Source: Amphibalanus amphitrite (Eukaryota; Arthropoda; Thecostraca; Balanomorpha; Balanidae). Taken from it: 64,000 nucleotides of DNA. The notes beneath the pieces were generated by a model. It was not told the DNA's origin. It was given only the letters and a program-made list of their open reading frames with translations, and made no database searches. The position numbers were made by a program, and so were the translations under genes. The stretch is from positions 296,501 to 360,500 of the forward strand of contig NW_024881617.1 in assembly GCF_019059575.1 (NCBI RefSeq), given 5' to 3'. Shown in pieces: positions 12,500-59,723 of this stretch; within the stretch, counting starts at the first letter, position 1, and the number at the start of each line of letters is the position of its first letter.

Positions 12500-13380
12500 G
12501 TCGTAACCGGAGTTACTATCCCTCATACCGTCGGCACAGCCTCTGGTTGGCGCGGCCTCACCGGCTTACTCACTGGGGAAGTGCGGACGGCAGAGTGTTG
12601 TGGGCCGCCGCGCTGGTCGCTGACCGTTCGTCGCTGACCACTGTCCGGTGGTGACCGCCGGTGGCCGCTGCCCCCGGCCCCGTTTCTCCACGTCTCTGTC
12701 TGACCGTCTGCTGTGGGGAGTGAGAGTGTCGTCAGTGAGCGCAGACGGCAGCGGCAGTCAGTTCCTCTGTCTGGCGGTGACCGCCGACGGCTGCCTCTCT
12801 CTCCGCTCGATCGGCGTGCCCCGCCCCGCGCCCCCGGCGGCGGCCGCCCCGCCCCCAGAGGCCGGCCGACCCGCCGCTCCCCGGCCAGTGTGCAGCGGTG
12901 GCTGCCGAGCGACGGCGGCGCTTCCGAGGAACCGGCAGACTCACCAGGGATTTCGTGACTGGCGTGAGCCGACCGGTAGTGGCGGCTGATTCGTGCTGGC
13001 GTGTGCATGGACTTCTGAGGTTCGTAGGGAGTGCCAGCCTTGGTGATATCTTCACTCGTGTGTGGATTTGGAAGTCTTCTGTGGTCGGCCAAGGTTTGTG
13101 GAGGCACTTTGAGGTGCTCTGAAGTCTGTCAAAGTTTCTCTCGATTAGCGAACGATTGACATTTAATGGACATTTGAAGATCTACAACCTTGGTAGGCCG
13201 CTCGCTAATAATCAGTGTTAGTCTACGTCATCCGCTATCGCCTTGGTCAGCTGGAATCGGTGTGGACTACTCTGATCTACCAAAGCAACTGTGGTCTGCC
13301 TGCCTGGGCCAAGTGCGACAGAAATTCAACTTGTGTCTTCCTGAAGCCTGTGTAGCCACTGGATACCATCGGTCGCCATG
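12500..13380 (+). promoter_or_regulatory. CpG-rich region with a possible first exon ending in a start codon
   Basis: From about 12500 to 13000 the sequence is very GC- and CpG-rich. The downstream part ends GGTCGCCATG immediately followed by GTAAGTGAAG at 13381. An ATG as the last codon of an exon with a near-consensus donor gives phase 0, the same as the other three first-exon candidates. This would be a mostly noncoding leader carrying only the initiator Met. The 5' edge is not visible and 12500 is only the start of the GC-rich part. Open frames on both strands here look like by-products of base composition. Confidence 0.35.
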
Positions 13381-16300
13381 GTAAGTGAAGTTCATTGGGT
13401 ACAGGGCCCCACCCTTCGTCGTGACATGTCAATAAAGGCGGGTGAGACGAATGACACGGTGGCACGCGGTACTCGCACCTGTGCAACGGACTGGGCGAGG
13501 CAAGAACTGGGCGGGGCGTGGTAGATTCGCTACCACTCACACTTGTGTTCGTCACGACGCACCAACGGAGCTGGGGATCCGCTAGCTCGGCATAAGTGTC
13601 CCAAAGCATCCAACGCCAGCCTTCTAAAGGACGCCGGAGCACACCGGGGTCCAGGAACCATCGTTCAGGAACCATCGCTCAGGAACCACGGTTCAGAAAC
13701 CAGTGTCCGAGAACCAGCTCTGATGCATATGTAGTCTCGGACAGCCTGGGGCAGACACTACCGGCCACAGACGGCATGGTAATTGACGTATCAAACATTC
13801 AAATGTGATGCCAGTCTGTTTAAACGCGGGCGTGGGTCCTAGGGTTTTGAGCTAGGTTCTGTCACGCGGTTTGACGAACGGTTGTCGTGTGACCTCGATT
13901 GGTGGCGTGACGGTTTTCCAAATTATGATGCAGCGACGGGTGTTGACGGGGCTGTGTGTCGATTGATGACAAGTTGTTGATTGTCCGTCTGGTCACGTCG
14001 AGGTAACCAACTAGCTGTTATCGCTAGAGAGCTGTGAGAAAGACGTGACATTTGGGACGCTACTCGAGCTTGTGTGCTTGTCGAAACTAGTCCATTCAAT
14101 GGCAACGGACATTGCCGGCGCTAATAACATGACCGTCACTGTCAACATCAGTCTGACGGTCTGTCTGAAGGGGATCGATTCCCAGCCATGCCGCCTCCCG
14201 TGCTCCTCTCCATTCTGCGCAGTATTCTCAGCCTGGATTTCCCATGCTCGGATGGTGTGGGGCCGCGCCTGCCTCGCCTGTCTGACGGAGGGCCTGCTCT
14301 GATCGCATTACTGCCCGGTGTGTTCGTGTACCGGCCGGGGCCCGGGTTTCAGGCGGTATTCCAAGTACGGAAACAGAGCCTCTATCCGTCCGCGCAAGAC
14401 CGGATGTGAAGCGATGGTCGGTCGGTGCGGGGGCGATCCGCCGGCTGTAATCCCTCCTACACGCGGCGGGAATGAGAGACAGCCGCGTCACGCTGACCTA
14501 AGGCCAGCGACTGGTGATTGAGAAGGGCCGCAATGCGCGACCGGCGCACTGTCGAGCATTTTTGTCATCCGTGCGGCGTGGTCCCGCCTTTCGCGACACG
14601 GCTGGATTGCGACACCCCGCCTCCGTGCTAGCGCTGCAGCTGAGGCCGTCAGTGGTACCGGTTTACCTGTCTATATCGACTCCGGTACGTGTTTGCGTGC
14701 GCGTGTGTGCGGCGTGTAGTAAACTTTCGCGGCTTGTCACTCGCCCGCCGCCGGCTGTCAGCCAGCTTCGACGTCGAGTGGTGGCGAACTCGGCGCGCTG
14801 CGGCATTTCGACAGCGCCCCGGGGCGTGGCGCAAGCGATTCCACTCGCGGCCAAATCACGGCGCGGCCCGAGCAGAGGCTGTTGATTTGGACGGCGAGCT
14901 GCGGCGGGGCGGATCTTTTCCTGGCGCACGTGTGCAGTCCTGCAGCCAGCAGAGGTTCTCACGACCTCTGCAGCCGACAGAGCTGCAACGACGATGTCAG
15001 GGACGACGACAGCGTTACCAGGGACAGGGGCGGTTCAGTTCAACACACAGGTGTTGACGTCGGTCGACTAGATGGGCGACCCCGCGGATGCCGGGTTTCC
15101 TGACATTGTTCGCGGAACGCCCGGTGATAGAAACCGCGACCTCGCCGCGCACAATGTCGACAGGAATGTTGCAGGGTCGCGCAAGATGTTCGACAGATGA
15201 TGTCATAAAGCTGCCGCTGTGGTGGTCGCTGCCAGCACGCACTGCAGAAGACACCTGCGCAGCTTGTGGTGTACTAGACTCGAGAGCCTAATGCGTGCGT
15301 GCCGCTGCGGCTGATGGGGAAAGGTCGACCTCGGTTTACCGGTAACCGTTTTCCTCACGCTCCTGTAGCGTGGGTGGCCTTTTGCGTCGGACTTTTAGCA
15401 GACTTGTGCTCTTTTGCGCACATTGTTTGTGCTTCTTGGAAAGCAAGCATATGTGGGTCGCTTACAGATCCTCTTGGCTGGGGCATACCGTGACTTCAGG
15501 GAGCCGGCGAAATTCAAGTAATTGTAGCGTTGCAGTTTGCTGACATGGTTAGTGGTCACTACGTTTTTTTTCATTGCATAGGTTATAACTTCCATGCTTT
15601 CGTCACAACTGACTCCGTCGTATTCACGGCTCCATTGCTCAGCAACCATGACGCCACTGCCGGCGTTTCCACAAGCAGCGGCACCCACAGCTTTTGAAGC
15701 CATGGAAGCCCCAGCCTCTCCACGACGCCCATGGGCAGCGATCGAACGATGCCGGCCTCGTGTCCAATGTTAGACGGCTCCGCGCCAGGGATGCTGAGCC
15801 GGAGGCACCGCGTCGGGCCCGTTACGTCATGAGATCCCGTCTGCCCTGACCCTGCGCCACCCGTACGTGACCGGTGTTCGAAGAAGCCTCCTCTACCCCG
15901 GCTCCAGTCGGCCGGTGCCAAGGAAGGTCGCGTGGCAGGGACAAACCGGCAGCGTATGGGAAAAATGGAAAGATAGCGAGCGCAGGTGTTTGGAATGCTG
16001 GTTTCGTGTGAGTTTGCTCCGATTCTCGCATGCATTGTTGATTCTCAGCGTTTCGAGTGAAATGGTTCATTCGTTTTGCATTCCTGTGGGGATGTATAAC
16101 GCAATTACGGAGCTGAACTGTCAAGGGACGGTAAAAGGGCTGTAAAAGCAAATCCTGTTCGATAATCTGTCAAGACGACTGTCTCATTAATCACTGCTTG
16201 TGTATTTCTTAACCGCCGGCATTCAGTTAGAGTAGACGGTCCGTCGCCTGATCTTCTCCGATGATGCTCACCTCTATTGGCTGCTCATTGTTGACGAACT

Positions 16301-18474: not shown

Positions 18475-18729
18475 ATGATCGGCGGCGGCCGCGGAACAGA
18501 CTGGGGTGCTAGTTCGCGCGTCGGCCGCCAGGCGGCGGGTCGCGCGGTGGCGGCGCTCGGATCGATGTTAGCTGGAGGCGAGGGTGAGCAGTGCCGAGTC
18601 GGCTGCGGCGTGAGAGTGACCCGCCCGGTGCCCGCGCCGTGCTCGCCGTGCTCGCCGTGCTCGGCCTTGCCCCGTGCTGCCCCTGTGAGCCACTGTGTGA
18701 TTAAAGTGGCCGGTTCTAGACCCAGAACC

Positions 18730-19020
18730 ATGACTGAAGAGGCGCGTACCACCCCGGGCACCAAGCCGACCACGTTTACGTCGTTTCGTAATGTCGAGGA
18801 CAGTGACCGTCGGGCGCGACGATACGAGCTCGAGGAGCGTCGTCGGCAGGCGGGCCTGCCTCGGTACGGCGGCTCGAGTTTCTCGACGGCCGACCGGCCG
18901 GCCGGCGGCGGGCCGACGTACCGTCTGGCTAGTCTGGACCGACTGGCACACCGGCACAAACTGTACGCCTCCGACGCCACCGACCTGAACGGCAGCACCA
19001 ATGGGGACGCCGAACATGCA
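18730..19020 (+). CDS. Candidate first coding exon, basic low-complexity N-terminus
   Basis: ATG at 18730 (context GAACCATGA, A at -3) opens 97 codons up to a strong GTAAGT donor at 19021, phase 0. The peptide begins MTEEARTTPGTKPTTFTSFR, has a highly charged segment (DRRARRYELEERRRQAG), then a Gly/Ser-rich part, and ends NGDAEHA. The reading frame stays open upstream to an ATG at 18475, which has a poorer context, so a longer N-terminus is possible. The region from about 18350 to 19020 is CpG-rich. The family is not recognised. Strand and phase match the septin exon at 53860, and the likeliest reading is a distal alternative first exon of that gene. An independent gene is not excluded. Confidence 0.58.
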
Positions 19021-23272: not shown

Positions 23273-23274
23273 CC

Positions 23275-23960: not shown

Positions 23961-23976
23961 GGCTCCGGCCGCTCCT

Positions 23977-24662: not shown

Positions 24663-24712
24663 TGCGCTGACTAACGTGACTGCCGCTAGCCGCTACTGAC
24701 CGCCCCAGCCGC

Positions 24713-26744: not shown

Positions 26745-26755
26745 AAAATGTCAGG

Positions 26756-29370: not shown

Positions 29371-29372
29371 AG

Positions 29373-32542: not shown

Positions 32543-32701
32543 ATGGCGTCCCAGTGCCACCAGTGTGAGGTGCTGCTTGGTCCGAACCTGAGCAAGCTGC
32601 CCAACGGCCTGCGAGCGCATTACCACAGCAAGCACGCTCTTCAGACGGTGGGCCAGACGCCACCGCCCAAACCGAACCGCTCCCTGTCTGCTGTATCACA
32701 G
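32543..32701 (+). CDS. Candidate alternative first exon with a zinc-finger-like Cys/His motif
   Basis: ATG at 32543 in a good start context (GGCGCCATGG) opens 53 codons, ending at CAG before a GTGGGT donor at 32702 in phase 0. The peptide begins MASQCHQCEVLLGPNLSKLP. Cys5 and Cys8 followed by His26 and His31 give a C-x2-C-x17-H-x4-H spacing, with a Leu three residues before the first His as in classical C2H2 fingers, but the loop is about five residues longer than usual. A Pro-rich linker (TPPPKPNRS) follows. The surrounding 700 bases are strongly CpG-rich. The phase fits the septin exon at 53860, 21 kb downstream. It may instead start a separate zinc-finger gene whose other exons were not found. 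Confidence 0.55.
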
Positions 32702-34332: not shown

Positions 34333-34350
34333 CCGATAGCTTGCTAACTT
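34333..34350. repeat. Target site duplication of the LINE, 3' side
   Basis: CCGATAGCTTGCTAACTT, identical to 40864-40881. It adjoins the element's A tail, so the final T bases are ambiguous. Confidence 0.9.
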
Positions 34351-35001
34351 TTTTTTTCCACGTTTATTGACAAATCGTACAAATATGACACAAGTACATC
34401 TATAATAATCGAAGGCTCTCCAGCCCAACAAGGACAATCTCTGTCATGGTTTCTGACGCCGGTTTTCCGTCTATGCTAAACGAGCGCCCCAGATTGAGGC
34501 GTTTAAACTCGCAAACGCCTGATATGCACCGACACAATAGGGCTTTCAAAACCCCCACAACGTGCGAGTAATATTTGGCAAGCGTACACCCTATAGCTCG
34601 CCGCCACCACCACGCGACGTGGTGTGGCCCGCCTGGCCAAGCCGGGGCGTTGTCCCATCATGGACTAAAGAAAACGCCCCGGCCCCGGGGAGATCTGGGG
34701 GATACCTCCCCAGCCGGGGAGAGCTGTGGGTTACCTCCCCGGCGCTCCAGGCGGGCCATCAGCCACCGCCCGCGCCGCCCGGCGAAGGGGTATCGCGGGC
34801 GGCGCCCCCTATCCACCGGCCGGGCATGCGAGCCGTCGACTGGTAGGGCCGGCGCCCCGCACGCCCGGCCGGCCGACCGGCCCCAGTCAAAGAGGCCGGT
34901 CCCGGGTTGGCCCGGATGGGTCATGGGAGCGGTGGCTGATTTTTTGCAGTTTTTTTCCATACATTTATTATACAATCACCGTGAACCACACACACACACT
35001 A
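34351..35001 (-). other. LINE 3' UTR
   Basis: About 650 bases after the ORF2 stop, ending in a short A run on the - strand. The middle (34600-34920) is GC-rich with several GGGG/CCCC blocks (CCCCGGGGAG, CTCCCCGGC) that can pair with one another. LINE 3' UTRs often contain the structure recognised by the element's own reverse transcriptase; that role here is inferred. Confidence 0.6.
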
Positions 35002-38000
35002 TCATATATTTGCGGTATGCTCTGTGGGCCGAGGCGAGCCAAGGAGCCAGTTGGTTTCGCCCCTTCTCTGACCTATTCTTGTCGACCACTTAGCATTAAA
35101 AGAGTTCATTTTATTGTTCACCTTTGCCCAATACATCTCACTTGTCTGATCTATCGTAAGTATGGTTATAAGTGTGTCTACCGAAAGTCTCCTCCCAGAG
35201 TAAATCATGTACACGCCTACACTAACAATATGGTTTATAATCGCATTTTCTGTGCCGCCTAGAATTACCTCCTTCACCCTGGTTATCCTTTCTGGTGTGC
35301 TTATCTGAATTCTGGTCAACCACGCTTCAACATTGTCCCAGAAAGCCTTAATCCTCGAACAATACCAGAATTTATGTTCTATATTTTCACGCTCCGTACA
35401 ATAACTGCATGAATCGGTTCCCATTAATCCAATTTTGTTGAGAAAGCTGTTTGTTCCTACTGTTCTTGTAATGATTTTATACCTAACTGCTCTATACTGC
35501 TGTGGAGTGCCCCTGAGACTTCTGTATATTTGTTGCCAATCGATTTGACCCAGCCTTCTCTCCCAGGACATTTCCCATATGTTTCTGACATCTCTCACTC
35601 TTTCCTGTCTGAAGACATTTTTTAAATGTGATGTACCCGTGTTTCTAGAAATAATCAAGCTTATTAATGGATCTATACTTGGTCCAAATAACTTCACCTT
35701 TTCTCCCGATTCCTTCCATTCTCTAGGTAAGCTACTTATTAGTGTTGCATAATCCAGAAAAGTGGTTGTAATGTTGTAGGTCCGTTTTAATTCCTCAAAA
35801 CCTAGTAAAGATCCATCTGTTTTTAATAAGTCATTCAACGATCTGATGCCTTTGACATACCATTCTTCAATCCATGAAGTTTTGAACTTAGTAGTATCAG
35901 AAAAAAAGATAGCTGTGGAGTTTAGCTCCTCGACACCTAGCTTCTGTGAGCATATTTCCCTGAAATTTGCTAATGCTATCATCACGTCTCTCCAGAATAG
36001 ATTCTTAGTACGAGATGCCTTTCTTTTCAAAGCTGTTTGACCCATTTGCCAGAAATATATATTTTTACCCGTACTTTTCTGTGCAACTGCGTTCCATATT
36101 CCTTGCTTTACAATGCACCTCCTAATCCAAGATAGCTTCAAGGCTCTCATATAACTTGTTAAATCAACCATGTCCACTCCTCCATTGAGATGGTTTTTCA
36201 TCAAAGACTCCCGTTTGATTTTTTCTCCTTTTCCATGCCACAGAAAGCTGAAAAGAGTCTTGTTAAGATCTTTGATAATTTTTTTTGATGGGTCAGGGAG
36301 CGTTGTGAGCAGGTGACTAATCTTGGAGATCAGCATCGATTTTATTATTACCACTTTTCCTTCCAGTGATACGTTTCTGAACTTCCATTTCGTTATTTCT
36401 CTTTTGATTTCCTTTACCTTCTCTGTGTACAGTTCTGTTACTTTTTGCAGTTCATTATCGAAAGTGACCCCTAGGACTTTAATCGTTTCACTCCACTTTA
36501 CAGCTAAATTTCTCTGAAGAAAACGATTTTCTCTGCATGCCTTCCCTATCCACATAGCTTGAGTCTTATCGAGGTTTGGACTTAGTCCCGAATACTTCGC
36601 GAACCATCCTATCTCTTGGAAGAGTTCCATCATGCTTGTTTTCTCTGGTTCGAGTAAACAAATCGTATCGTCTGCATACATGAGCACTTTGTGTTCCTCA
36701 TTGTCTATTTTAATTCCTTTGATAGCTGCATTTCCTCGAATCTTTTTCGCTAAAACGTCCATCACAAGAATAAACAAGTAACAACTTAGCGCATCCCCCT
36801 GTCTACAAGACCTTCTTAGCATTATTTTACTCGACAAATGACCATTATACAAAATTCTGGAAAAAGCTCCAGCATACAGTGTGTTGAACCAATGTGTAAT
36901 ACTATGCGGAAAGTTTTTCTGCTCCAGGACTTTTTTAATGAAAGTCCAACTGACTGAATCAAAAGCTGCTTCTATATCCAGACTTACTAAGACCCCGTTC
37001 TTTTGTTCTTGATTCAAGAGTTGGATAACGTCGTAAATCATCCTGATATTGTCCCCAATAAATCTCCCTTTTAAATAGGCAGACTGGCAATCCTCGATTA
37101 TGTCTCCTAGCACGAGTTTTAATCGATTTGCAATAGCACCTGAAATGATTTTGTAGCTAGTATTTAGGAGTGTTATTGGTCTATATGACTTGATCAAATC
37201 TCTGGGTCTATTTGGCTTAGGTAACAACACGATTATTCCTTCTTTTAAAGTTAGAGGAACTGTACCCTTTGTGGCACTCTCAACTACCATAGCATGAAAA
37301 AAGTGTTTTATGTCTGCCCAGAAGAATTTGTAAAACTCTACGGAAAAACCGTCACTACCTGGAGACGTTCCATTTTTCATTCTCTGTAGCGTTGATCCTA
37401 ATTCTTGCATGTTCAACGGCTTATCTAGATTGAGCTTGTCATGGTCATTTACTTTTTTAATATCCATGTTTGATAGATATTCATCGTAATTAACTCCCTC
37501 TAAAAACTCATCCTCACTTTTGAACCTTTTTTGATAAAATCTACGGAATAGATCAAGAAATTCTATTTGATTCCTTGTGCAGCCTGCTGACGATCTGATG
37601 CATGGTATCCTCTTACTTTCGTACCTCCTTTTTTCTAATGTAAGAAAATACTTTGTTGGTTTTTCCGCATTTTCCCTCCATACAGCTCTCGCCCTAACCA
37701 AACTCCCTTCCAACTTGATCCTCCTTACGTCTTCCAATTCTTTTTTCTTGTTTTGTATCTGATCGTACAATGAGTGAGTACCTAAAGCGTCAAGCTCTTT
37801 CTCTAAAAGAAGTATATCTCTTTCCAATTGGTTTTCTCGCCTTCGTTCCTCCCTTCTCTTCCTAATGCCGAAAGAGACTGTTTCTCTTCTTAACGTCAGC
37901 ATCAGAGTTTCAAAAAACAAAGATGAATCAATTGTCATTTCTATCTTTGTTGAGGTCTCCAAAATGTAGTCATGTGCGTATACGGGAAGAGCGTATTCTA

Positions 38001-39060
38001 CTACCGTACTCTTAATCGTATCTTTTATCATTTTGACGTAATTTTTGTCTCTTAACAATGATGCATTGAATTTAAAGAGTCCTCTTCCCCTCGGCTGCTT
38101 TGAGAAGTCCACCGTCAATGTAATAATAGAGTGATCCGATCTATAACCTGGTTGAATGTCCGCCTCATCAACATAACTTTCCAGAGCAGCACTAGTAAGA
38201 AACATATCCAGTCTCGCCTGCTTTACTATTGGGTTTCCAACCCGCCAAGTATATCTTCGGTTTTCAGGATTTTTTTCTCTGTATATGTCTATCAATTCAT
38301 TTTGTACCATCATTGCTTTTACTGCTTCTCTAGCTCGAGTGTTGTTTTCTCTTCTATAGTTAAAGTTATCTAACTGTTGATTTAGAGTTACATTAAAGTC
38401 ACCCCCGATAACGACTGGTGTATCTGCGTCCTCTATGGTTGCATTAATGCTCTCGCTCAAAAGTTCGAAGAAATTGGGCTCGTCTGTATTCGGGCCATAA
38501 ATTGCTACCAGACATAATTCGAATTCTTTCTGGATTTTTGCCTTTGTAATGATGAAGTTTCCTCCTTCATCAATCATTGTCTCTCCGAATTCTACGTCTA
38601 AGTTTTTCGTAAGTATTGCGACTCCTCTTGCATTGTGCGTGTATGGTGCTACTATGACTGATGATCCCCAAGCGTTCCTAAAATAAGGCACCCCTATCTT
38701 TTTGCAGTGGATATCCTGTAGGAAGCAAATATGAAAGTCCTGGTTTCTTAGATATTGGAAAACATCCTTTCTTTTCTTGAAATCACCTAACCCTCTGCAA
38801 TTAAAAGATGCGAATCTAATTGCACTCATGGTGAAGTTTTTGCGTTCCTTTCTTTTTTCCAGACCTTTGCACAACTCGCTTTGACCCACAGAGACTCCGC
38901 TTAAGCGCGATGGTACATTGAAACATGGTAGCAAACAAACATGGTACAAACCTTGTAGCCTGTCGTTTAAGACAAATACAATATACATGTGAAAGTGTAT
39001 GCCATGGCAAAGGTTGTATGAAGAGCCATTGACATGTGTTCCTCGTTCCCTCGTTCCCAT
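35002..39060 (-). CDS. LINE ORF2, APE endonuclease plus reverse transcriptase
   Basis: Open for 1352 codons from the first ATG, but the real start is probably Met78 (ATG at 38829-38827), directly before IRFASFNCRGLGDF, which opens the apurinic-type endonuclease domain. That gives about 1275 residues. The endonuclease shows FLQDIH (metal-binding position is Asp116, where Glu is commoner), NxRGVAIL, AIYGPN, GGDFNV and RSDHSIITL. The reverse transcriptase (about 560-830) shows GRFIGDNIRMIYD, AFDSVSW (Asp near 698), SCRQGDALSCYLF and YADD (Tyr795). A C-terminal C-x2-C-x7-H-x4-C motif (CSYCTERENIEHKFWYC, about 1216-1233) matches the Cys/His knuckle of L1/Tx1 ORF2. It nicks the target and copies the element RNA in place. 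All catalytic motifs look intact. Clade assignment is by motif style. Confidence 0.94.
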   Translation of the reverse strand: MGTRERGTHVNGSSYNLCHGIHFHMYIVFVLNDRLQGLYHVCLLPCFNVPSRLSGVSVGQSELCKGLEKRKERKNFTMSAIRFASFNCRGLGDFKKRKDVFQYLRNQDFHICFLQDIHCKKIGVPYFRNAWGSSVIVAPYTHNARGVAILTKNLDVEFGETMIDEGGNFIITKAKIQKEFELCLVAIYGPNTDEPNFFELLSESINATIEDADTPVVIGGDFNVTLNQQLDNFNYRRENNTRAREAVKAMMVQNELIDIYREKNPENRRYTWRVGNPIVKQARLDMFLTSAALESYVDEADIQPGYRSDHSIITLTVDFSKQPRGRGLFKFNASLLRDKNYVKMIKDTIKSTVVEYALPVYAHDYILETSTKIEMTIDSSLFFETLMLTLRRETVSFGIRKRREERRRENQLERDILLLEKELDALGTHSLYDQIQNKKKELEDVRRIKLEGSLVRARAVWRENAEKPTKYFLTLEKRRYESKRIPCIRSSAGCTRNQIEFLDLFRRFYQKRFKSEDEFLEGVNYDEYLSNMDIKKVNDHDKLNLDKPLNMQELGSTLQRMKNGTSPGSDGFSVEFYKFFWADIKHFFHAMVVESATKGTVPLTLKEGIIVLLPKPNRPRDLIKSYRPITLLNTSYKIISGAIANRLKLVLGDIIEDCQSAYLKGRFIGDNIRMIYDVIQLLNQEQKNGVLVSLDIEAAFDSVSWTFIKKVLEQKNFPHSITHWFNTLYAGAFSRILYNGHLSSKIMLRRSCRQGDALSCYLFILVMDVLAKKIRGNAAIKGIKIDNEEHKVLMYADDTICLLEPEKTSMMELFQEIGWFAKYSGLSPNLDKTQAMWIGKACRENRFLQRNLAVKWSETIKVLGVTFDNELQKVTELYTEKVKEIKREITKWKFRNVSLEGKVVIIKSMLISKISHLLTTLPDPSKKIIKDLNKTLFSFLWHGKGEKIKRESLMKNHLNGGVDMVDLTSYMRALKLSWIRRCIVKQGIWNAVAQKSTGKNIYFWQMGQTALKRKASRTKNLFWRDVMIALANFREICSQKLGVEELNSTAIFFSDTTKFKTSWIEEWYVKGIRSLNDLLKTDGSLLGFEELKRTYNITTTFLDYATLISSLPREWKESGEKVKLFGPSIDPLISLIISRNTGTSHLKNVFRQERVRDVRNIWEMSWERRLGQIDWQQIYRSLRGTPQQYRAVRYKIITRTVGTNSFLNKIGLMGTDSCSYCTERENIEHKFWYCSRIKAFWDNVEAWLTRIQISTPERITRVKEVILGGTENAIINHIVSVGVYMIYSGRRLSVDTLITILTIDQTSEMYWAKVNNKMNSFNAKWSTRIGQRRGETNWLLGSPRPTEHTANI

Positions 39061-39138
39061 TAGCCCAAAACTCTATACAGGTAATCCCTATCCTATCCAT
39101 ATATAGCCTAACCGCCTTGATTGACTTTGAATGGCACT

Positions 39139-40713
39139 TCATTTCAGGTAGGAGCGTATATCAGATGCTCCTCTCCTCAAACCCGATTCCCCTCGCACCA
39201 AACCTTCCCGTTGTTCTTTATCTCTATCAGTCTGATAAACCTGTTTTGCTAGAAGGGCCCGTTGGTAGGCGCCCTCTTGACCCTCACTTCTTCCTTCTCT
39301 CGAAAGATGTCGTTCTGCCTGCGCCTTCCCATCGTCCCTCTGTCCCGGAGGAACGCTTGTAGTCCGCCTCACCACTCTATCGCGCACACCACCGGTCCCC
39401 CTCCCCTTCCCTGCCCCAGCCACCCCACCTCTGGCCCTCGCTTGACCCGAGCTCCCATCCCCACACGGAGGTGAGTTCAGGTGCACTGGGAGGGCGCGCG
39501 CGCCGCCCCGACCGGACGGCTCACCGTTGACCACCGGCTGCTCTCTCCTGTCGATGTCGGCGTCTCGTTGGTTGACCTCCCCCTGGCCGCCGGGACGCCG
39601 TGCCAGAGGCGACTCCAGGCCAGGGGTTCCGTGCGACCCCGAGCCGTTCCTCCTATGCCCGACCAAAGACGCCGCCCCAGCGGTCCCGTCAGACGGGTCA
39701 GGCATGTCGACATCCCGCTGGTCCGCCCGGGGGCCCGCCGCGGCGTTCGTCTGCTCCGGCAGAGGCGGCTCTCGGGCCTCGCTACCCAGCTCGCACGTAG
39801 GCAGAGTCGTGGTCCGCTCGGCTCCCACGCTCTCTCCCAGCACGGAGGGACCGGACACCGCGGGCAGCTCACCCGCTCGCCCAGGGTCACGTGACCCCGG
39901 CCGGTCGGTCTCAGGGGCGACCCCAGGACCCGCCTCCGGGGGAGGCACCGGCTCTGTAGAGACATTTCTCACCAGCTGTGCCAGGAAGTGTTCTGCTTCC
40001 TCTCTGTTTTTGGCCCGCATGAGTCGCTCATTTTTTGATCTTGCAAACAGCACTTCTCCTCCTCTGGTTATAACCGTTGAGATTTTTCCTTCCCTTCGCG
40101 CTTGGAGGAGTAATTGAAACGCCTCCTGCCTCATCGGGGTCAGGTTTTCATTAATGAAAACTTTGTGACCTCTCAGCTTGTACTTGTTGCGAAATATCTC
40201 ATCTCTGATTGATCCCCTTTCGTCACTGGCAAAAGTGATCAGCACTCGGTTTCGTGGCAGGACTTTTGCGGAAATGATATGAGCTGGGTGTACTTCGAGC
40301 TCCAGCATTCTATTTATCATCGCTGACATTGCCGCTATCATTCCGCGTTCATTTTGTGGGATATGCAAGTCCTTCCCTGAGAAAATGAGCTGTGTTCTTC
40401 TTCTCAGTTTCTCACTATCCTCTTTTTCCTGTTCTAGCTTGGCCACTCTGTACGCGAGATTTTGCCAATCGTTGTGCAGTTCAGCTAGCGCCTTTTCCAG
40501 CGAGTTCGCCTTTTGTGTCGTTACCGTAATCGTTTCCAATGCAAAGCTCAAAGATTGTTCTATTGCCTTTATCCTTTCATCAAGAGCTCTTTTGATCTCC
40601 GTTACAGCCTCACCGGTTTTCTCCTCTATGAATGCTTTGAGCTCTTCTATCGTTCCTTCCTCTTTCTCCGGAGTTCCCGATTCGTGTCTTCTTTTCCTCT
40701 GTTTTGTCATCAC
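39139..40713 (-). CDS. LINE ORF1, L1-type nucleic-acid-binding protein
   Basis: A 524-residue protein read right to left. Residues 1-12 are basic. Residues about 15-100 form a heptad-rich coiled coil (EELKAFIEE, LEKALAELHNDW, VAKLEQEKEDSEKLRRR), which in L1 ORF1 proteins drives trimerisation. Residues about 104-175 (TQLIFSGKDL, HIISAKVLPRNRVLITFAS) resemble the RRM of L1 ORF1. Residues about 180-245 (KVFINENLTPMRQEAFQLLL, GEVLFARSKNERL) resemble its C-terminal domain, and together these bind the element's RNA. The remaining 270 residues or so are a Pro/Gly/Arg-rich tail, much more GC-rich than the rest, with no domain recognised. It precedes ORF2 on the same strand. The stop is TGA at 39141-39139. 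Confidence 0.9.
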   Translation of the reverse strand: MMTKQRKRRHESGTPEKEEGTIEELKAFIEEKTGEAVTEIKRALDERIKAIEQSLSFALETITVTTQKANSLEKALAELHNDWQNLAYRVAKLEQEKEDSEKLRRRTQLIFSGKDLHIPQNERGMIAAMSAMINRMLELEVHPAHIISAKVLPRNRVLITFASDERGSIRDEIFRNKYKLRGHKVFINENLTPMRQEAFQLLLQARREGKISTVITRGGEVLFARSKNERLMRAKNREEAEHFLAQLVRNVSTEPVPPPEAGPGVAPETDRPGSRDPGRAGELPAVSGPSVLGESVGAERTTTLPTCELGSEAREPPLPEQTNAAAGPRADQRDVDMPDPSDGTAGAASLVGHRRNGSGSHGTPGLESPLARRPGGQGEVNQRDADIDRREQPVVNGEPSGRGGARALPVHLNSPPCGDGSSGQARARGGVAGAGKGRGTGGVRDRVVRRTTSVPPGQRDDGKAQAERHLSREGRSEGQEGAYQRALLAKQVYQTDRDKEQREGLVRGESGLRRGASDIRSYLK

Positions 40714-40863
40714 GGCCAGTCACCGTAGGCACTTTAACATGTAACCAAAACCACAGCACTTTGGTTACTCTCTTTCACTCTGCCTCGCGCTCACTGCTCT
40801 CACTTGACGGCCCGCGCGGAGCGCACGCGCGCACGTCCGCTCGCCTCGGCTGACCTGCCGCAA
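40714..40863 (-). promoter_or_regulatory. LINE 5' UTR, probable internal promoter
   Basis: 150 bases between the 5' target duplication and ORF1. The outer part is strongly GC- and CpG-rich on both strands. LINEs carry an internal promoter here. No specific factor site is claimed. Confidence 0.5.
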
Positions 40864-40881
40864 CCGATAGCTTGCTAACTT
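40864..40881. repeat. Target site duplication of the LINE, 5' side
   Basis: CCGATAGCTTGCTAACTT, identical to 34333-34350. It marks where the LINE 5' UTR ends and host sequence resumes. Confidence 0.9.
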
Positions 40882-43800: not shown

Positions 43801-46800
43801 ATGGCTAGTCGTGTGCCCCGATAAGACCCTGCAATCCCTTGATGCCTAAAAAGCGTTCTAGGTTCAATGTCTCAATCATCTCAATCGGCGCCTTTCCCTG
43901 CCCTGTTCTCGCTCCTCCCCTCCGTCCCCTTCGGGTCTGGCGGTGTCTCTTGCCGGTCGCAGCTGAGCGTCCGTTTGAATTTCGCCCGGGGCTCCCGCGC
44001 TTGCTGCAGCTGACTCATCGTCGACTGCAGCCAGCCTGCCCGCCGCGCCGTAGCGGGCCAGGTGCAGACCCAGACTGGCAAGGAGTGGGAGGGGGATGGG
44101 GGGGGGGGCGTGACCGGCCAGACTGGTCGGTCGGCAGTTCATGCTTGGTTCTTCTACATATGCAAGAGTATGACTTGCATGGCAACATGTCCTGAAGATG
44201 AAATCCGTAACCATGTCCCTTCGTATCTAAATAAAGCTGTCGAAGAAATAGTTGAGGACAAAGTTATTTTATCTGAAATCTTATCTTAACTCAGTGATGC
44301 TCAACGTTTCATATAAGACTTAGCGTATTTAAGCTCCTTCAATCGTTTCGCCTCGAGCAACGCTAAGCCGTTCGGCATGCACTCCCATCCTCGGAACGCG
44401 GAGCCCTTGTCCTGTCATTGTGACCCGGATTCAGGGCATGTTGCTGGGGATTACGCACCGCCGGCCTGGCCTCATGTCCTGTAGCTTTGTACTGGACCTG
44501 ACAATGGGGACGCTGGCGGGCCTCGGCGAAAGGACGGGGCTGTTGGGATGGGTATACGCGGTATACGGAGGAATGTGGCGTGGGGACGCGTCACCTTGGA
44601 CCTGTGAAAATAGAGCGGACGTGACCTGTTCCGCGACGTTAAGTTGTTAGGATAGTCCTGGAAGGGATGTGACTGGCTTGTCATTGCACCATCAGTACAG
44701 AGGACAGCTAAGCTATCACCACTGTCGATCTGATGTCGCGATGGCCTTGTTACTGCCGTAAAGCATGTTACCGTCTAGGACTGGCCATGAGTGAGCATTA
44801 CAAGACAGATTTCCGGCGAGAACTTTGGAAGTATGCTACTCTTATGCATGTTTTGCCATTTTTATGTGATATAGCTGCCGCATTGATAGATGCCCTCTGA
44901 GGCCTAACATTGAGCGTTCTACGGCTAGGGATTACCATCGGGAGCAGGAACAGGAACTCTAGCAGAACAGATCCACATTTGTAACTCGGTGCGTTCCCGC
45001 ATGGAAGTGCGACTGGCTGCCCCTCAATACCACTTCCTTGGGGACGGCACCCACCGGACACAGCGGCCGCCTATTCCCGCTCTCTTTCCGCTTCCTCCGG
45101 CACCCGGTGCCGACCCCGGTGCGGCGCGCTGATTCGTCCAGCACCTGCGCGCGCCAGGTGCTAGACGGGAGGGAGGAGCGTGCCGCCCTCGGGGGCTGCG
45201 CACCGCACCTGGCGCTACCTAGGGGGTCGGACCATCGTCTGACGCTGGCAGTGCGCCAGACGAGGTCAGTAGTGGTGGTGGTGCTGTGAAACTGGTGACG
45301 TATTGGGTGTTTTGGTGGTGTGTTGCACGGTAGAGAGCGGAAGAAGACATGCCGGCTCTTAGAGAGGTGGGTAATCCAGTTGGGGGAAGGTGCCGTTGCT
45401 ATTCTTGGCCCCATTTGTAGCTGTTTGGATTGAACCGGACGCTGTCAGCTCAATGCCTGTGTTATGTCATGCCAGGCCTTGCAATGCATGTGATGTCGTT
45501 TCCGTGATTTGTCAACAAAGTCAGCAAGAAACTTGCAAAATCTTATCAGTTGTATTCTTCACTTTCAATGTCTGCAAAGACCCGGTCTTTTGAAAGATGC
45601 ATGGCGCTGGCAGCTCACCTTGAGAAAATAAATCCAGCACACGACTGGCGTAATAAAACCGGCGAGCATCACGTCGCAAATCTGTGCCGGTTTTCCAGTT
45701 ACCATTACATCCACCTGGCTTGTTGATCCACCGACGCAAGGCTAAAAATGGCCCCGACCAGAGCTTACAACATGTTCGTTCGACAAGGCTGGTCGGATAG
45801 CCTTGAAGCACGCTTCCCAGTGCGCGCTAAGTCGCTGGACGTTTCACATTTGGACTGATTCTCCGGTCAGACGTTGATTGATAGGTGTGAGGCAGTGTTT
45901 GTCGTGCCGTTGCATATGAGACTGGGAAAATTCGTGCTACTGCCGCGCCGGCCGACCAGCGCAGTCTGCGAAATTCGTGCAACAATAGTCGTGTTGACGA
46001 CCCCGCGATGGATGTTAGCGTGACGCGTTGCACGGCGAGCAGCTGCGCGCATGTTTGTTTCCTTATTGCTGTTTTGAGAACTTGTCGGAATTCACCTTTT
46101 TTAGTGTACTGGTTCAATTGTTTCTTGCGTTTGTGGTGCCATAAAGGTTTTGACTTAGCATTTCAACTCGTAGACTGTTTAGTGTTTACCTCAATCTAAA
46201 GAATTACGACGACAAAAAAACTCCACGTCCACGCATTTTGTATTATTCCCACATCCCGTCATACTTATAGTGGTAGAACAACGTACTATAACACCTTTTT
46301 TTGCTAGGAGCCAACACTCCATTGCCTGTCCAGTCTACCCCTCACCAGATCCTGTCCTTCACTCGACACCGTCGTCAATCACCATAGACCTCTTTTAGCG
46401 GCCCTGACATGAGTGATGGCCGATGTGCCCTCCCCAGTCCCCAGGGACGGGGTGGGTCGCGGCAGCACTTATCGAGTGAATCACTTCCAGATGGGGTGAC
46501 TCAGCGTTGCTGTTGTCGGGAGAACACATGGACCTACAATATACGACTCTTCACTATAGATTTGTTGAGACAAATTTACAGTTAAGACCATGGTTTAGTT
46601 GAAGCTCTTTTTGTGTGAAAGATGTACAAACGAAACCTCCTTGTCATCCTATCTGCATTTGAAATATGATAAAACCGCAATTAAGCTTCCAATCTTCCGT
46701 CTTTTGCTGGGGTGCTCGCGTGTTTTCCTTGGCGTGAGCAGCCTTGTCACGGCTAATTCCGGTATTAATTCCTGCTGTCTCTCCGGAGACCTCGTGCGTG

Positions 46801-52215: not shown

Positions 52216-52402
52216 GTGGTTTTACTTTGCACTTAATTTTCGTGTTAATATTTCCTTTTTGTGTGTTAATTTGTGTTTATGTTTTGTGGGAAAGGCGCTT
52301 TGATTTAAGCATTTTGCTTTTGCGCCGATCCGCGATTATTTTTTCCGATGTTTTTCGTTCTTGGTTACCAAAATACACTGAATGAATGAATGAATGAATG
52401 AA
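52216..52402 (+). mobile_element. Probable 3' tail of a CR1/L2-type LINE
   Basis: A potential stem AGGCGC/GCGCC (near 52291-52325) is followed by AT-rich sequence, ACCAAAATACAC and six copies of TGAA (52379-52402). Stem plus short tandem tail is typical of 3' ends of LINEs such as CR1 and L2. No reverse transcriptase is present. Confidence 0.4.
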
Positions 52403-53859
52403 AAGGAACGGGCGCACGGGTTGTCTGCGGATGGTGGGGAAAATGAGGGCAGGGCTGGTGGTCAGGACCCCAGGGATTCTTATGTGGTAAAGGCCACACC
52501 GTCTGTTTTTGGGTAGAATGTAGGAAACAAGGAATCTCAGGTCAGGTGATCGTAAATGGAGCAGACGAGACATTACAGATTGAGAATGTTTATAGTCAAC
52601 CTATCACACCCTTTTACTTAGAAGCCACCTCACAAACGCCCAGAGCTGCATCGGCTATTGGCGGCTTTATAAGCCACCGTTGACCACCACAGCATGCAAC
52701 TCCCACGAGTTGTTTCGGTTGGGCGTGCCGCGGGTGCCTTAATTCTCAGGGTGATTGACTCTCACGAGTTCGAGGTCCCCCGAGGCCGTGACAGGCGCTG
52801 GGGCGACGCCCTCAGAACCAGCAGTCTAGCGCCGCTCGTCACTGTTGATGTAACGAGCTTTTAGCATTTCCACAAAAAAAAAAAAATGATTTGACACAAA
52901 TTTGCAAATGAAGGTCTAGCTTTGAACCGTGACATTTTTCCTGGCGATGATTCTTTCACGTCCATTCATGGGACTTTGGCCTGTTGCCAATACTGTGACT
53001 GGGAGTCGAGTTTGTCGACCCTGCTGTTCGCAGTGGTGTAACCCACAATGATTTACCTTCCTCTCTAAACTGCACATGACCAGGCGACCAAACGAGCTAG
53101 CGCGGTGCCGCCGGAGCGCCGCCACCCGTTTCGTGACAGACCTCATCGTGTGTCCGAAACTGACCGCAGACTGCGCGCGGCAGCGGCGGTTACCATGGCA
53201 ACGAGACTGGGCCGAGAGACTCGCAGTCTATCGGCCCCTTTCGCCGGTGAGGCGTGAAAGCCGCCGAAATGAGGCAACCTGTGTGTGAAAGACCTCCGCC
53301 CCGGGCCTGGGTAAAAGACCCCAGGAATCCGCCGCGAAAGGCGCCTGTGAATAGGCTGAGAGGAAGGACGACGGTTTGTCCAATGAGGAAGAAACCGGCG
53401 GGAAAATTGGCGTCGTAGTGTGGGTACGATGAATTCCTGTTGGTGTCGGTCGGTTGTGGTGTTGGTTTGTGTAGGTTTGTGGTGCGGTTCGGGACGTTCT
53501 CCATACGCACGGTTTGTGGTTACGTCTGTCTGTGGTCTGTGGTGGTGTGCGGTTGTCCTGTGGAGCGTGGTGTTTTGACTAGTCTCGTACGGTGGTCGCT
53601 TGCCTGCGGTTTGTCCGTGGTTTGCTGACGCATCGATGGCAGCTAGGTGACGATTTGTTGACGAATACGATAGGGTCAACCTGCGACATTTGATATCCCT
53701 CACCAAAATGAGCCGTGATCAGTCTATCTGTGATGAATTCTTGCAATAGCACTTTGTAATTCTTGATTGTGTTACTGTGCATCTTGATCAAGTTCCATAG
53801 CTTGACGGCCTTATCTAAAGATGGTCTGAGCTAACGCCACGTTTTCCTTGTGTCCACAG
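52403..53859 (+). other. Presumed intron ending at the septin acceptor
   Basis: No gene recognised. The last 30 bases hold the T/C-rich tract and AG used by the exon at 53860. Confidence 0.45.
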
Positions 53860-54012
53860 TTGCAGAATAAACGAGAGATGTTCTTCCGAGGCGAGACGCC
53901 GCCATCGGTGGCGCCGCCGCCCGTGCCCAAGGAGATGAACAACACGCCGGCCGCCCCCGCCCCCGCCCCCGCCAAGGAGGTGCGAGAGAACAACAAGGAG
54001 AACAGGCCGGAG
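53860..54012 (+). CDS. pnut: Septin N-terminal linker exon
   Basis: Open 51-codon exon between acceptor TGTCCACAG (AG at 53858-53859, preceded by a T/C-rich stretch) and donor GTGAGG at 54013. It is phase 0 at both ends, so it joins in frame to the exon at 59516 and to any of the phase-0 first exons. The peptide starts LQNKREMFFRGETPPSVAPP, runs into a Pro/Ala-rich repeat (PAAPAPAPAK) and ends NNKENRPE. It is low-complexity and probably disordered, like the variable N-terminal extensions of Peanut. An in-frame ATG (53878-53880) offers a fallback start. Membership in the septin gene rests on strand, phase and position, because the peptide itself is not diagnostic. Confidence 0.78.
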
Positions 54013-56769
54013 GTGAGGTGAACAGCTGAACATCGCCTGTTCACTGCCCGAGGCAGTTCTCTGGGGCTCCGGGGGCGGGTTTAGATGTGACGCTAGCTTG
54101 GTATTTTGGTTTTGAATGCGGGCTTAGTGTATCTCTTGGTCACGTGTTTGATGTGTAGGCTAAATGTGTGTTTGTGTATCTCTGTGACATCTTTGTTAGA
54201 TCCCAGTGTCAAATGTGTGTTAGTATAATCTCTACGGCATCTTTGTAAGAGATTTTCAGCTCGGATGTAGCAGCCTGTACCAGTTTCGGGCTAATCGTAT
54301 TGCCGACAAATTGTCGACAGTGTCTCTTCGTTCTATCCAATTTGATAACAAGTTGGAATTAGATCTGGTTTGCATCATCCTATCACGCACATATCGCATG
54401 TGTATCGGCCGTTGTGGCGTGGAGGTATTGGGCTAGCGTCGGTGTTTTGTCAGTGGCTGACCCAGATGACCCCAGCGTTTACACTTGCTGAGGCTACAAT
54501 CCCTTCCGTGCCGTGTCACCCTTGACCTCTGTGGTCCCTCATCCGCCTGTCGCTGGGGTATTGAATAGTGAAGGGTAGGGTCTGTCGGGGATGAAGGGGG
54601 CGGGGTAACGCGGCACACCACACAAACAGCAGAGGTTGCTTGTCTCACAATGAGTGTTTGTGACGAAGGAGCATGCCTTGCTTGTCTGTAACCAACGTAG
54701 CAACATCATTGTGTTCGACAAAAGGGGATTTAGAGGTTGTTTACTGAGTTCGTGATGCATCATAATCACTTCACTGGGTCACTGGGAAGTTGATCGCAGT
54801 GCTGAATGACGCCCAATGTCTGATTGACTGATTCCTACCTCGTAATGACTGCGAGGGACAAAAAGTGACATGAGAAGCCCACATGTTTTGTATGTTTTTT
54901 TATGTTTAAGTCCATTCGTCGCTTTTTGGAAAATTTGGCGGGAAGTTAAACACGTCAAATGTTAAGTACTTGAAAACGTACTGGGGAAGTATTTTTCCCC
55001 GCTAACGGTCCCATTTTATTCGAAATTTGACGTGTATTATCCGTATGCCGTAGTCATCAGATACGCCGCTGCCTAATCGTACCCAGTACCCACCCTTGAA
55101 CGTTGGATGGGTGTCACGCTTGTTTTTTAACGGATATTTTCTCCCGGCATACAAGTGTCTGTACCTGTCTGTGCCTCATCCTATTCATTGAAGACTTTGA
55201 TTGTCATTAGCCGGTCAAGTTCACAGCATTGTTCCCTGGGACGCAAAAACCTTATCCGCGTGCTCAAAAACGCACGAAGATACCGCGACCTGTAAACCAA
55301 TGGAAAGCGTGGGTGAAACGCACCCGGTGCTTTGAACAAGCGTCTTTGAAGCGTTTGCTGAACGGAAGAAACGCGAGGCATTCATTCTGGCCTGTAATGT
55401 TGCATTGTTTTTTAGTTCCGTTCATTGACAGCCCGTCAAGCTCCTGCATGCCGTTGGAGCCTGTCATGGCTTGGGAGGCAGGTGAAATGTGGCTTTTTGT
55501 GAATACCTTAGCAATCAGCACGGCAAGCTCCAGTCTGGGCCCAGTCAACCGGGCCTGCAAAAGCTGGTGATGATAGTCTTTGATGACGGCGACGCGGCAC
55601 TGAATCAAGCCAGAAGATGGTGTGTCAGCTGCCGCCTGTTATTGGTGATAGCGTGCTGGTGCTGGTGATCGCATGTGGTCCTACTGGTGCTGATTACCGT
55701 GACACCAGGCAGCACCAACCACGATTGGTGACTGGTGCTGGGGAGAACGATCCCTTGCTGAAAAGAGCGGTTTGTGATGCGTTTTCTCGACACGCCATCA
55801 GCGCATAAGCTCGTGGTCCCGATGGAATCGCGTGAGGTTATCGTCAGAACTCAGCTGTGGGAAGACCAACGAACCACAGAAAACTGTCCATAGAAAGGCT
55901 AGCGGTATGGATGGCCTGTTGACAAAACCTATAGAAAGCAACGCGCCGATTGTTATAAATAATTGGTGGCAGGGGCACTGGTACTGTCCTTCGCCAACAG
56001 CAGTTTGAAAGACTCGTCACCTGTCAAACCAGTCTCAAACATTTGAGAGCGGAACAAGACGTCGAATGGTTTACGGCTCAACTATTTAAATACCTGGACT
56101 ACTCTCGATATTGAACTACATAGTGTTTGTGTTAGCTTTATTGAACTTTTACGGTGGCTACTTTCTCTTTTATATCCCTCAATGGAGAGGGAAAGCAGGT
56201 TGTGCTCCTGACGTCAAAATGTGTCACTTCTCCAAAGTCCATCTCATCCCCCGCTGTTTACGTTATGCCGTAAACACAATCCATCAAGGAGGTACCGTGC
56301 ATCTGCGGGGCATCGCCGCCGTCGCAATAAATTCATTGTTGGGGCTGGCCATATTTCAATTAATTGGCTATTTGTCTTTGCATTCCTTCGCATCGATTCA
56401 TCACTTCCTACGAGTCAGCGGCGCTGCTAACCAGAAAAGCAATTAGGATTTGGTATTATCTTCTAATTATGCGCAGTTACAGTCGTTCCAATCGCACACA
56501 CGCATATTAGAAATGCAGTCAGAATTCGTTTGATACGATTAAGTCTGTTTCTTTTCATCCATCTCAGCTATCGTATTTCGTCGTTGACCCAATCACACTA
56601 TGGTCACCACTTATATCCAGAATCCCTCCGCAGCAGCATCATTCAGCCCATCTGCACGGCGGTAATTAGTTACCTTCCCGGACCTCACAAGCGGTCTAAC
56701 ACACCGTCCAACCTTGTGTCACACTAGTCACACCTGGCGGATCAGCGCGGCCCACTAATCGGTCCGGAA
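54013..56769 (+). other. Septin intron, proximal part
   Basis: Begins with GTGAGG. No gene recognised. Short frames on both strands lack known domains. Confidence 0.5.
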
Positions 56770-57167
56770 TCAGTCCAGTCCGGCGGCCTCCCTCGACAGT
56801 ACCTGCTCAGGCGGTGACGGTGCGACCGGACCTCGCACGGAGTCGGCCGCGCGGTGTCGGGGCGGACGGAGCGTGTGCGAGCGACTCAGTCGGTCACTGG
56901 GCCGCGGGCGGTGTGGAGAGGGGAGGTGGACACGGTGTGGACGGTGTGGAGAGAAGTGGACAGTGAGGTGGATTGTAGTGCTGTGGACAGGTGGTGGTGC
57001 AGTGAGGACAGTGCAGCTGGTTGAAGTGGACAGTGAACGGTGGTGGCCAGAAGACCTCCCACAAGCAGCATTTCCAGCGGTCTTTCGTCTCAGCTGTGAT
57101 CGACCGATCCCGTCCGACCTCAGCTGACCTGCCATACCGCCCGAACCGCTGTGACGGATCTCTCGCT
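56770..57167 (+). promoter_or_regulatory. CpG-rich upstream region of the proximal first exon
   Basis: Dense CpG at 56770-56920, then a G-rich stretch with GTGGACAGTGA-like words. No TATA box is obvious. A promoter role is inferred from composition and from the coding exon that follows. Confidence 0.4.
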
Positions 57168-57326
57168 ATGGCCCCGGGCGTCCAGCGTGGAGGCGGCCCG
57201 CAGCCCTCGCAGCTACCGCTGCCACAGCGTCGCCGGCAGCTGGATCGAGGCAGCTCTGGACTGTCGCGCAGTGGTCTGGACCTGACCGGCAGCCAGCAGC
57301 ACCTCAATGGGGGTCCAGGCGGGAAG
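57168..57326 (+). CDS. pnut: Candidate alternative first coding exon of the septin (nearest promoter)
   Basis: ATG at 57168 opens 53 codons, MAPGVQRGGGPQPSQLPLPQ followed by a basic, Ser/Gly-rich tail ending GGPGGK, up to a GTACGA donor at 57327 in phase 0. This would splice in frame onto the septin exon at 59516 and skip 53860-54012. The 400 bases upstream are GC- and CpG-rich with repeated GTGGACAGTGA-like words, consistent with a 5' UTR and promoter. No homologue of this short peptide is recognised. The case rests on the donor, the phase, the CpG context and its position 2.2 kb ahead of a certain septin exon. It could be a chance ORF. Confidence 0.6.
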
Positions 57327-59515
57327 GTACGACGCAGAGGTTATTGTTAGAGGTTATTGGAGGTTGCTCCCCCGTCAAACCAACGGGGGAGTCCTAAATT
57401 AATTATACACGAAAAGATGAAAGCGAGGGATCGGAATAGTTAGGTATGAGTTATGACGGGATGAGCGTAACGAAAGCTACAGCATTATACCGATTTTAAT
57501 CCTTCATGCAATGTATTATTCAAATTCTGTGATGCAAATTATTGTTCATTTCTGTTGCTTGTCGACTTACCTAACCCCGCCAGTCTGTTGCGACAGTGAT
57601 GGTGCTATAAATATGCTGCATTTTTAGACAGTCTTATCGTCGGTACTTGTTTGATGTGGCCACATCGTCAACTTCTATCGCAACAGCTGGACTTTGAAAA
57701 TGTGTGCTGCATTTGCTGGACAAGGTTTGAATGGCGAAAACGGATTGCAACGGCTGGAAATCTGCTATGCCTGTCTATGCAGACCAAAGTTTACCCATGC
57801 ACCGTCACGCTGGACGTCACGGCCGCTGGTGCGTCACGTTTTGCACGCCGCGTGACGCGGTGGACTCCGTCATGGCGCTTACTTTATGTGGTGGCCAGGG
57901 TCTCGTGCTCAGCGATTTCTCAGGTGATGTGAATATGCAGAGGGCCATTTGATCATTTGCAAGTCATTAGTGTGGCTTGATGGTTTTTATATCATGTTAT
58001 CATTGTCATTGTTAAAATTCATTTTCTCAGCCATTGCAACCAAGCGAATGGGTTCGTCGAATTTGGCCCAATCCCATCTGTCCGGTCTTGATAGGGCCAG
58101 CGATATATGCTGACACGCTGGCTTGATTCGCCCTTTTTACTTACGAAACGCCCTTAATTTCACTAACAATAAAAACGTCGAGATGGTCACTTTCACCCTG
58201 GTGTTTTGCGGTTGATTCCATTTGCGCTGATGACCGGTATCAGCGTGTCTGAAGCGATTAGAACATTAGTCCCGCTGTGTGCCGACATCATCCCCATGTT
58301 ATTCGCCAATCTCATCTCTCAAACGAGCCAACATCTCTCCTGGCGTGTGAGGCCCGCTCGGCTTACAGCTCTGAAATTGGTGACGCGTGAGTGGAACATG
58401 AGCGAGGGACCGGGGCCTCCATGGGTCCGGGACAGAGTCCAGATTGCAATCGTCCTCCGTTGTTAATGCTGTCCGTCTATTGAGGCCCTGCCGGGTTATC
58501 GATCTTTTTATCCGCCTCTCCGCGCCTCGCGATGCTGGTGGTTTTTGCTATTGTTCGTCGAGTTAGTCGGCTGGTTCGCGATCGAAGATCGAAGGCTATA
58601 GAAGGCAGCACTAGGAGCGCTGGAGTTTTTATTCGCGGGTGATGACGCCGCGTCAGGCTTCTTGCGAGGCTCACGCTGCGCTGGCGTGGTACTGTCTGAT
58701 TTAGGATATATGTTTGTTGGTTGCTGCTGGTCAACGAAGCGAATGAAGAATAGCTCAAACGTGTCATATCATTGCGATATGACAAGATTAACACGAGTAT
58801 CTCATTCTCCACGCCATGGACGAGACGTGTTCTCGCAGCGCAATCCACCATGGAATAATAATGATCCACGCGTGCTATGGCGCATGCCAAATGCCAGAGT
58901 CTTTCGCTCCTTTCTTCCCTCTTCCCTGGCCGATCCATTATGGAGGGACTGTGATTTTCATTCGATGTTGCACGGTCCTGACGGCCTTGGTCGTAATGCG
59001 ATGTGTGCTACCATCCTTCATTGCCAGCGCAAAAACTGTTATGCATCCGCTACCATCCTTTTGACCTGCAAAAGTCTGTTCGAATTGTATTATAGCTACT
59101 TTGCTGTCATTTCGTTTTTTTAGAGTAAAGTTTTTGCAAAGTGTCCTTGACCCAGCGGGCCAACCTCGAACCAACTGCCAGTCATTTTCACTGACCATTT
59201 ATTATCACGCATGACTTCGCAAACATATGCTGATCTCTCACCTCGCAGACCTTTCTTTGACCTATCCAGTGACCTTATCATAACGTAGTGTTACCATTGT
59301 CCAGGTAACATTATGTTGAAGAATAGAGGAGCGTGTAAGTCCGAACTAACTCTCTTTCTTGCTGCCTCACCCCCAGGCTCGCCAAATCTTCCAACTGTGT
59401 CTGACCCGCCACAGGAGACGTCCGTGCAACCTCCGTAGTCCATCTGACTATCTTTAATCCGCTTCAGCTAGTGCCGAATCTCCCTCTGACTCCACCCTTC
59501 TCCATCTCTTCCTAG
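57327..59515 (+). other. Septin intron, distal part
   Basis: Begins with a GTACGA donor and ends in the T/C-rich tract and CCTAG acceptor of the conserved exon. No gene recognised. Confidence 0.5.
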
Positions 59516-59723
59516 GTGGCGCCGAAGCCGGACCACCCTGAGCCTTCCAAGGGCCCGGCGCCGGAGCCGCCGCGCCGTGCCGACGAACAGAACCGTGAGC
59601 GGCAGCGAGGTCCTCAGCGACGCACCAAGCAGCTGGACGGCTACGTGGGCTTCGCCAACCTGCCCAACCAGGTGTACCGGCGAGCCGTCAAGAAGGGCTT
59701 CCACTTCACGCTGATGGTAGTCG
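59516..59723 (+). CDS. pnut: Septin-7/Peanut-type septin, conserved internal exon before the P-loop
   Basis: Septins are GTP-binding proteins that assemble into filaments at the cleavage furrow and cell cortex. The exon is open in phase 0 from an AG acceptor (59514-59515, after a pyrimidine-rich stretch) to a GTGAGT donor at 59724. It begins with a Pro/Lys/Glu-rich linker of about 45 residues. The linker is followed by the block [20 protein letters not shown] and then FHFTLMVVG, which is the signature stretch of the Septin-7/Peanut group (polybasic helix and first beta strand of the GTPase domain). The exon stops after the first base of the Gly codon that opens the P-loop, so the GxxGxGKS motif must come from the next exon. 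None was found between 59724 and 64000. An H replaces the Glu usual in GFEFTLMVVG. An 18-G run follows 28 bases after the donor. Family identity is very secure; the exact subgroup is inferred. Confidence 0.93.

Follow-up and report, generated by a model that had tools for sequence, protein, structure and literature searches.

The question raised by this locus of Amphibalanus amphitrite is whether one septin gene is furnished with several interchangeable first exons, each behind its own promoter, giving septins with different N-termini on a common GTPase core. The window, meaning the whole stretch of DNA analysed, comprises 64,000 nucleotides (C120:296501-360500) of an 807.55 Mb assembly in 2644 contigs. 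The exons considered are listed below by window position, each with the evidence on which it was placed.

12700 to 13380, plus strand: e1, candidate untranslated first exon with a lone ATG at 13378-13380; sequence, upstream limit arbitrary.
18730 to 19020, plus strand: e2, alternative first coding exon of 97 codons with a phase-0 donor; haplotype changes and a homologue in the duplicate gene.
32543 to 32701, plus strand: e3, alternative first coding exon of 53 codons with a phase-0 donor and conserved CxxC and HxxH; haplotype changes and a weaker collinear homologue.
53860 to 54012, plus strand: m, internal coding exon of 51 codons, phase 0 at both ends; collinear homologue in C956/C1004.
57168 to 57326, plus strand: e4, alternative first coding exon of 53 codons with a phase-0 donor; haplotype changes.
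59516 to 59723, plus strand: s, common exon carrying a linker, a polybasic region and the start of the septin GTPase domain, and ending in phase 1; haplotype changes (6/0) and the Pfam Septin match.

The assembled core was identified by comparison with the PDB, where its best match was human septin-7 (7m6j_C, 508.7 bits). The best scores in the other groups were 395 bits for septin-2, 309 for septin-3, 298 for septin-9 and 279 for septin-6, and six septin-7 chain sequences headed the match list above the best septin-2. By this bit-score test, rather than by a tree, the gene was assigned as a septin-7/Peanut orthologue. PF00735 scored above its cut-off exon by exon and in the e2 form, and the Pfam Septin match starts within s. 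No Rfam family was found at gathering scores.

The six splice coordinates of the sequence-only reading were all correct, with donors after 13380 (ATG|GTAAGT), 19020 (GCA|GTAAGT), 32701 (CAG|GTGGGT) and 57326 (AAG|GTACGA) and acceptors before 53860 and 59516. In-silico splicing bore out phase 0 at all four donor-acceptor joins, and each spliced form stayed open through s and six downstream exons on the same contig, the gene being covered in the 3' direction as far as C120:369999. All four exons had been supposed able to use either acceptor. Exon e4, however, lies downstream of 53860 and can therefore join 59516 only, which limits exon m to the e1, e2 and e3 forms.

Two arguments of the sequence-only reading lost most of their weight. 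The chance of phase agreement, put there at 1 in 80, cannot be taken at face value and was rejected as evidence. Among 161 GTRRG donors between 12500 and 59515, an open ATG was available in phase 0 for 46, in phase 1 for 57 and in phase 2 for 40, and the phase argument is weak because matching candidates can be picked from so many donors. CpG-rich islands had been noted at all four exons; by CpG count in 300-bp windows e1, e2 and e3 do stand at the 97.8th, 99.2th and 99.0th percentiles, whereas e4 reaches only the 81.7th. With that value, and a CpG observed/expected ratio of 0.99 across the whole window (that is, no CpG depletion), the CpG argument is weak as well.

Evidence for coding was sought in the substitutions between haplotypes. 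Contig C331 matched the C120 region at 94.1% identity in chained aligned blocks and was taken as its other haplotype; mean allelic diversity in another barnacle is given as 5.5% in the available text of PMC8270832. Between C120 and C331 the synonymous and amino-acid changes numbered 11 and 1 in e2, 8 and 0 in e3, and 9 and 0 in e4, a sum of 28 synonymous changes and 1 amino-acid change; the shared exons had 2 and 0 (m) and 6 and 0 (s). Under random placement, with transition bias ignored, P was 4e-6 for e2, 2e-5 for e3, 1e-5 for e4 and 3e-4 for s. Exon m, with too few changes, was not significant by itself between haplotypes (P 0.055).

A six-frame scan covered the haplotype-aligned part of the window (34159 columns in 1-59500, the C331 stretch extending only to about window position 15184). 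The top segments were e2 (9.5), e4 (9), e3 (8) and the antisense shadow of e4 (8). Exon s scored 5, equal to minus-strand segments at 53199-53300 and 43966-44088, and the septin exons 3' of the window scored 4 to 10 among the segments listed. When mismatches were relocated within 500 bases in 40 replicates, the maxima were 5 to 7.5 and no segment reached 8 or more. The substitution pattern and this null ruled out e2, e3 and e4 as chance open frames. By these comparisons e2, e3, e4 and s were shown to be protein-coding, and, judged by the same changes, at least three coding first exons are kept by selection in the septin-7 gene. The proposal of four real first exons thus stands for e2, e3 and e4, on haplotype changes, scan and null, and not for e1, which has nothing beyond its motif.

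Exon e1 codes for a Met codon alone before its donor. Its identity in C331 is 94%, equal to the aligned-block average, and so adds nothing to the motif. It had no match in the C956 and C1004 stretches at E 1 (blastn, word size 7; about 25 kb of sequence 5' of the duplicate's e2 in C956 and 9 kb in C1004), and a genome-wide DNA search returned only itself and C331. It may be an untranslated 5' exon belonging to the septin-7 gene or to e2 transcripts, or no exon at all; it may also be a chance frame picked for its phase. If it were joined to m, translation could start at its own ATG or at the seventh codon of m, a Met.

A second gene of septin-7 type was found on C956 and C1004. Core protein identity between the two genes is 84% (C956) and 83% (C1004), with Ks of 0.98 and 1.06. 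A study of genome duplication in barnacles reports, in the part of PMC11331182 available, a paralogue Ks peak of 1 for A. amphitrite, and the two septin-7 genes fit a genome-duplication pair. The order e2-e3-m-s is kept in both C956 and C1004, the duplicate's e2, e3 and m all end at phase-0 donors, and s is present in all four copies. Between the duplicate's haplotypes, synonymous and amino-acid changes were 22 and 0 in e2 (here 131 codons), 4 and 2 in e3 (P 0.04) and 7 and 2 in m.

The three upstream exons differ in how firmly they were matched to the duplicate. Exon e2 was firmly matched in both C956 and C1004 (E about 2e-19), its peptide matched genome-wide at four septin-7 places only (E 0.001), and LPRYGG-SFS and YRLAS-DRLA-RHKLY are kept. 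Exon m was matched at E 0.002, or 2e-6 and 2e-5 in a second comparison, and keeps LQ-KREMF--GE. The weakest of the three was e3, matched within 119 kb at E 5e-4 and 1e-3; under other search settings it was missed in C956 and placed at a spurious site in C1004, and neither e3 nor m found the duplicates when searched against the whole genome. Although its length differs, e3 retains its last residue, Gln, together with CxxC, LP, R and YHxxH. The pairwise scores of e2, e3 and m between C120 and the duplicate were reached by 0 of 5000 shuffles. Position, phase, start and residue pattern together make homology of the two e3 exons likely.

No homologue of e4 was found in C956 or C1004. Between m and s, where e4 sits, the duplicate has the following:

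C956:24268-24306 (L039:5269-5307, minus strand) and C1004:147220-147258 (L045:2221-2259, plus strand): candidate exon of 13 codons, phase 0, identical in both haplotypes.

This candidate lies 3' of a GC-rich stretch and is without similarity to e4; a relation between the two was ruled out, as 3050 of 5000 shuffles scored as high. No other conservation with the duplicate was found between e2 and s at E 1e-3, in a comparison that also missed e3 and m. The forward alignments listed to C956 and C1004 fell on septin exons and two other window places only (about 4.1-5.0 and 9.0-9.2 kb). Over all comparisons, the sequence in common with the duplicate's contigs outside the exons lies at about 4100-5000 and 9000-11300 and probably consists of repeats.

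The N-terminal peptides were examined for domains and structure. That of e2 is a 97-residue Arg-rich module with YRLASxDRLAxRHKLY, that of e3 a short one in which CxxC and HxxH are conserved, C5, C8, H28 and H31 being invariant across three sequences, and that of e4 a 53-residue Gln/Gly/Arg-rich stretch. A Pfam search of five proteins gave, besides the septin domain, only matches below curated cut-offs, among them BetR in the e2 form (E 0.32) and HMG14_17 in the duplicate's e3+m form (E 0.014); the e3+m form itself had no Pfam match. PDB searches with the duplicate's e2 and the C120 e3 gave nothing below E 0.4. AlphaFold, run without an alignment on the e3 peptide alone, gave an uninformative model with a mean pLDDT of 57.1.

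The account that best fits these observations, and that we consider highly probable on genomic sequence, is a septin-7/Peanut gene whose alternative first exons, with separate promoters, put different N-termini on a shared GTPase core. A set of phase-0 first exons that share one acceptor is the structure expected of a gene with alternative promoters. Each of e2 (18.7 kb), e3 (32.5 kb) and e4 (57.2 kb) would have its own promoter and begin its own transcript. Exons e2 and e3, and possibly the Met-only e1 (13.4 kb), would be spliced to m and then to s, and e4 directly to s with m skipped. The GTPase core from s onward would be common to all forms, and the proteins would differ only by an N-terminal extension, which could be the e2 module, the e3 module, the e4 stretch or m alone. 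Through these ends, septin filaments may be directed to partners, cells or stages that differ from form to form. The suggestion of several promoters giving different N-termini thus gains from the coding status of e2, e3 and e4 and from the retention of e2, e3 and m in the duplicate, and loses e1 and the phase-chance argument; a single gene probably makes septins with different N-terminal ends.

The points at which the frames begin bear on another reading, in which one promoter, at e1 or further upstream, serves the whole gene and e2, e3 and e4 are alternatively included internal cassette exons. In its favour, the frame of e2 is open upstream of its ATG for 86 codons in C120 and 73 in C331. Against it, in-frame stops lie 16 and 24 codons upstream of the e2 ATG in the duplicates, 15, 15, 14 and 14 codons upstream of the e3 ATG in the four copies, and 7 codons upstream of the e4 ATG in C331 (54 in C120). 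By these distances the start of e2 rests on the duplicates and that of e4 on C331. The three exons also have an ATG each, in frame with their conserved codons, and the cassette arrangement is judged unlikely.

It is less likely still that e2, e3 or e4 belongs, as a first exon, to a separate non-septin gene nested in this one. Other genes would have room in 45 kb of intron, and the joins to the septin exons are those predicted from splice signals; however, e2, e3 and m keep their order beside the duplicated septin-7, the donor phase matches the septin acceptors, and in the haplotype-aligned part of the window no other segment scores like e2, e3 and e4 except the antisense shadow of e4. That the exons, e1 apart, are chance open frames chosen for their phase is barely credible: the 46 of 161 donors that allow a phase-0 start would make such a choice easy, but for e2, e3 and e4 the pattern of substitutions and the relocation null speak against it, as does the conservation of e2 and e3 in the duplicate.

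The arrangement of alternative first exons resembles vertebrate SEPT9, in which, in the available portions of PMC3236340 and PMC8801916, one septin gene has several promoters (predicted, in the barnacle), varied N-termini and a common GTPase core. For SEPT9 a luciferase assay confirmed an alternative promoter inside the gene, tagged isoforms differ in their localisation (PMC3236340, in part), and the N-terminal extension contacts microtubules and F-actin (PMC8801916, in part). Unlike SEPT9, which is of the septin-3 group, the present gene, known here from sequence, is of the septin-7 group. Its GTPase core is like that of septin-7 and Drosophila Pnut, the best PDB matches being all septin-7 chains.

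Among the matches listed from the open-access literature, no report was found of a septin-7/Peanut gene with alternative coding first exons, nor any description of a CxxC-HxxH metal-binding module in septins. The available part of PMC5765355, on Pnut, has nothing on the N-terminus or first exon, and that of PMC6323724 has no alternative coding first exons. No open-access paper was found that treats septin, barnacle and cyprid together. Alternative N-termini are known for another septin and look new for septin-7, and public gene models may list such isoforms already.

The septin complement of the genome was surveyed by a profile search of the contigs, which gave 41 septin exon matches on nine contigs. 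One exon each of C43, C62 and C717 was compared with the PDB. That of C43 had septin-1/2 first, that of C62 had septin-7 and septin-1 near-equal, and that of C717 had a chain labelled Septin-2 (8dkt_B) first, followed by chains of the septin-6 group. C1298 and C636 were taken, from the profile matches, as haplotypes of these contigs. No gene of the septin-3/9 group was recognised, no septin-3/9 chain coming first for the one exon each of C43, C62 and C717. The C62 locus (C62:973114-980292, G000), found on a single contig and near-equal to septin-7 and septin-1 in the exon tested, is a further divergent septin gene.

By analogy, the N-terminal diversity that in vertebrates belongs to SEPT9 may in this genome fall to septin-7. 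A wider proposal, speculative and somewhat doubtful, is that in an arthropod lineage without a recognised septin-3/9 gene septin-7 took on a promoter-coded N-terminal code that predates the gene duplication (Ks about 1) and has survived in both copies, e3 being a small metal-binding CxxC-HxxH module. In the available text of PMC8801916 septin-7 is the only group with a single human member and, in the model organisms reviewed there except C. elegans, takes inner positions in hexamers and octamers. If septin-7 has interchangeable N-termini, a cell could give all of its filaments a new label by its choice of promoter. N-termini coded by isoform, as in SEPT9, would then have arisen in a septin group other than that of SEPT9, and the duplicate pair would be a natural experiment on which N-termini cannot be dispensed with.

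The two haplotypes of the window differ by an insertion in the e3-m intron. A LINE-like element lies on the minus strand at 34351-40863 with two long open frames of 526 and 1356 aa. It is missing from C331, and a target duplication of 18 bases flanks it (34333-34350 and 40864-40881); the insertion is therefore polymorphic.
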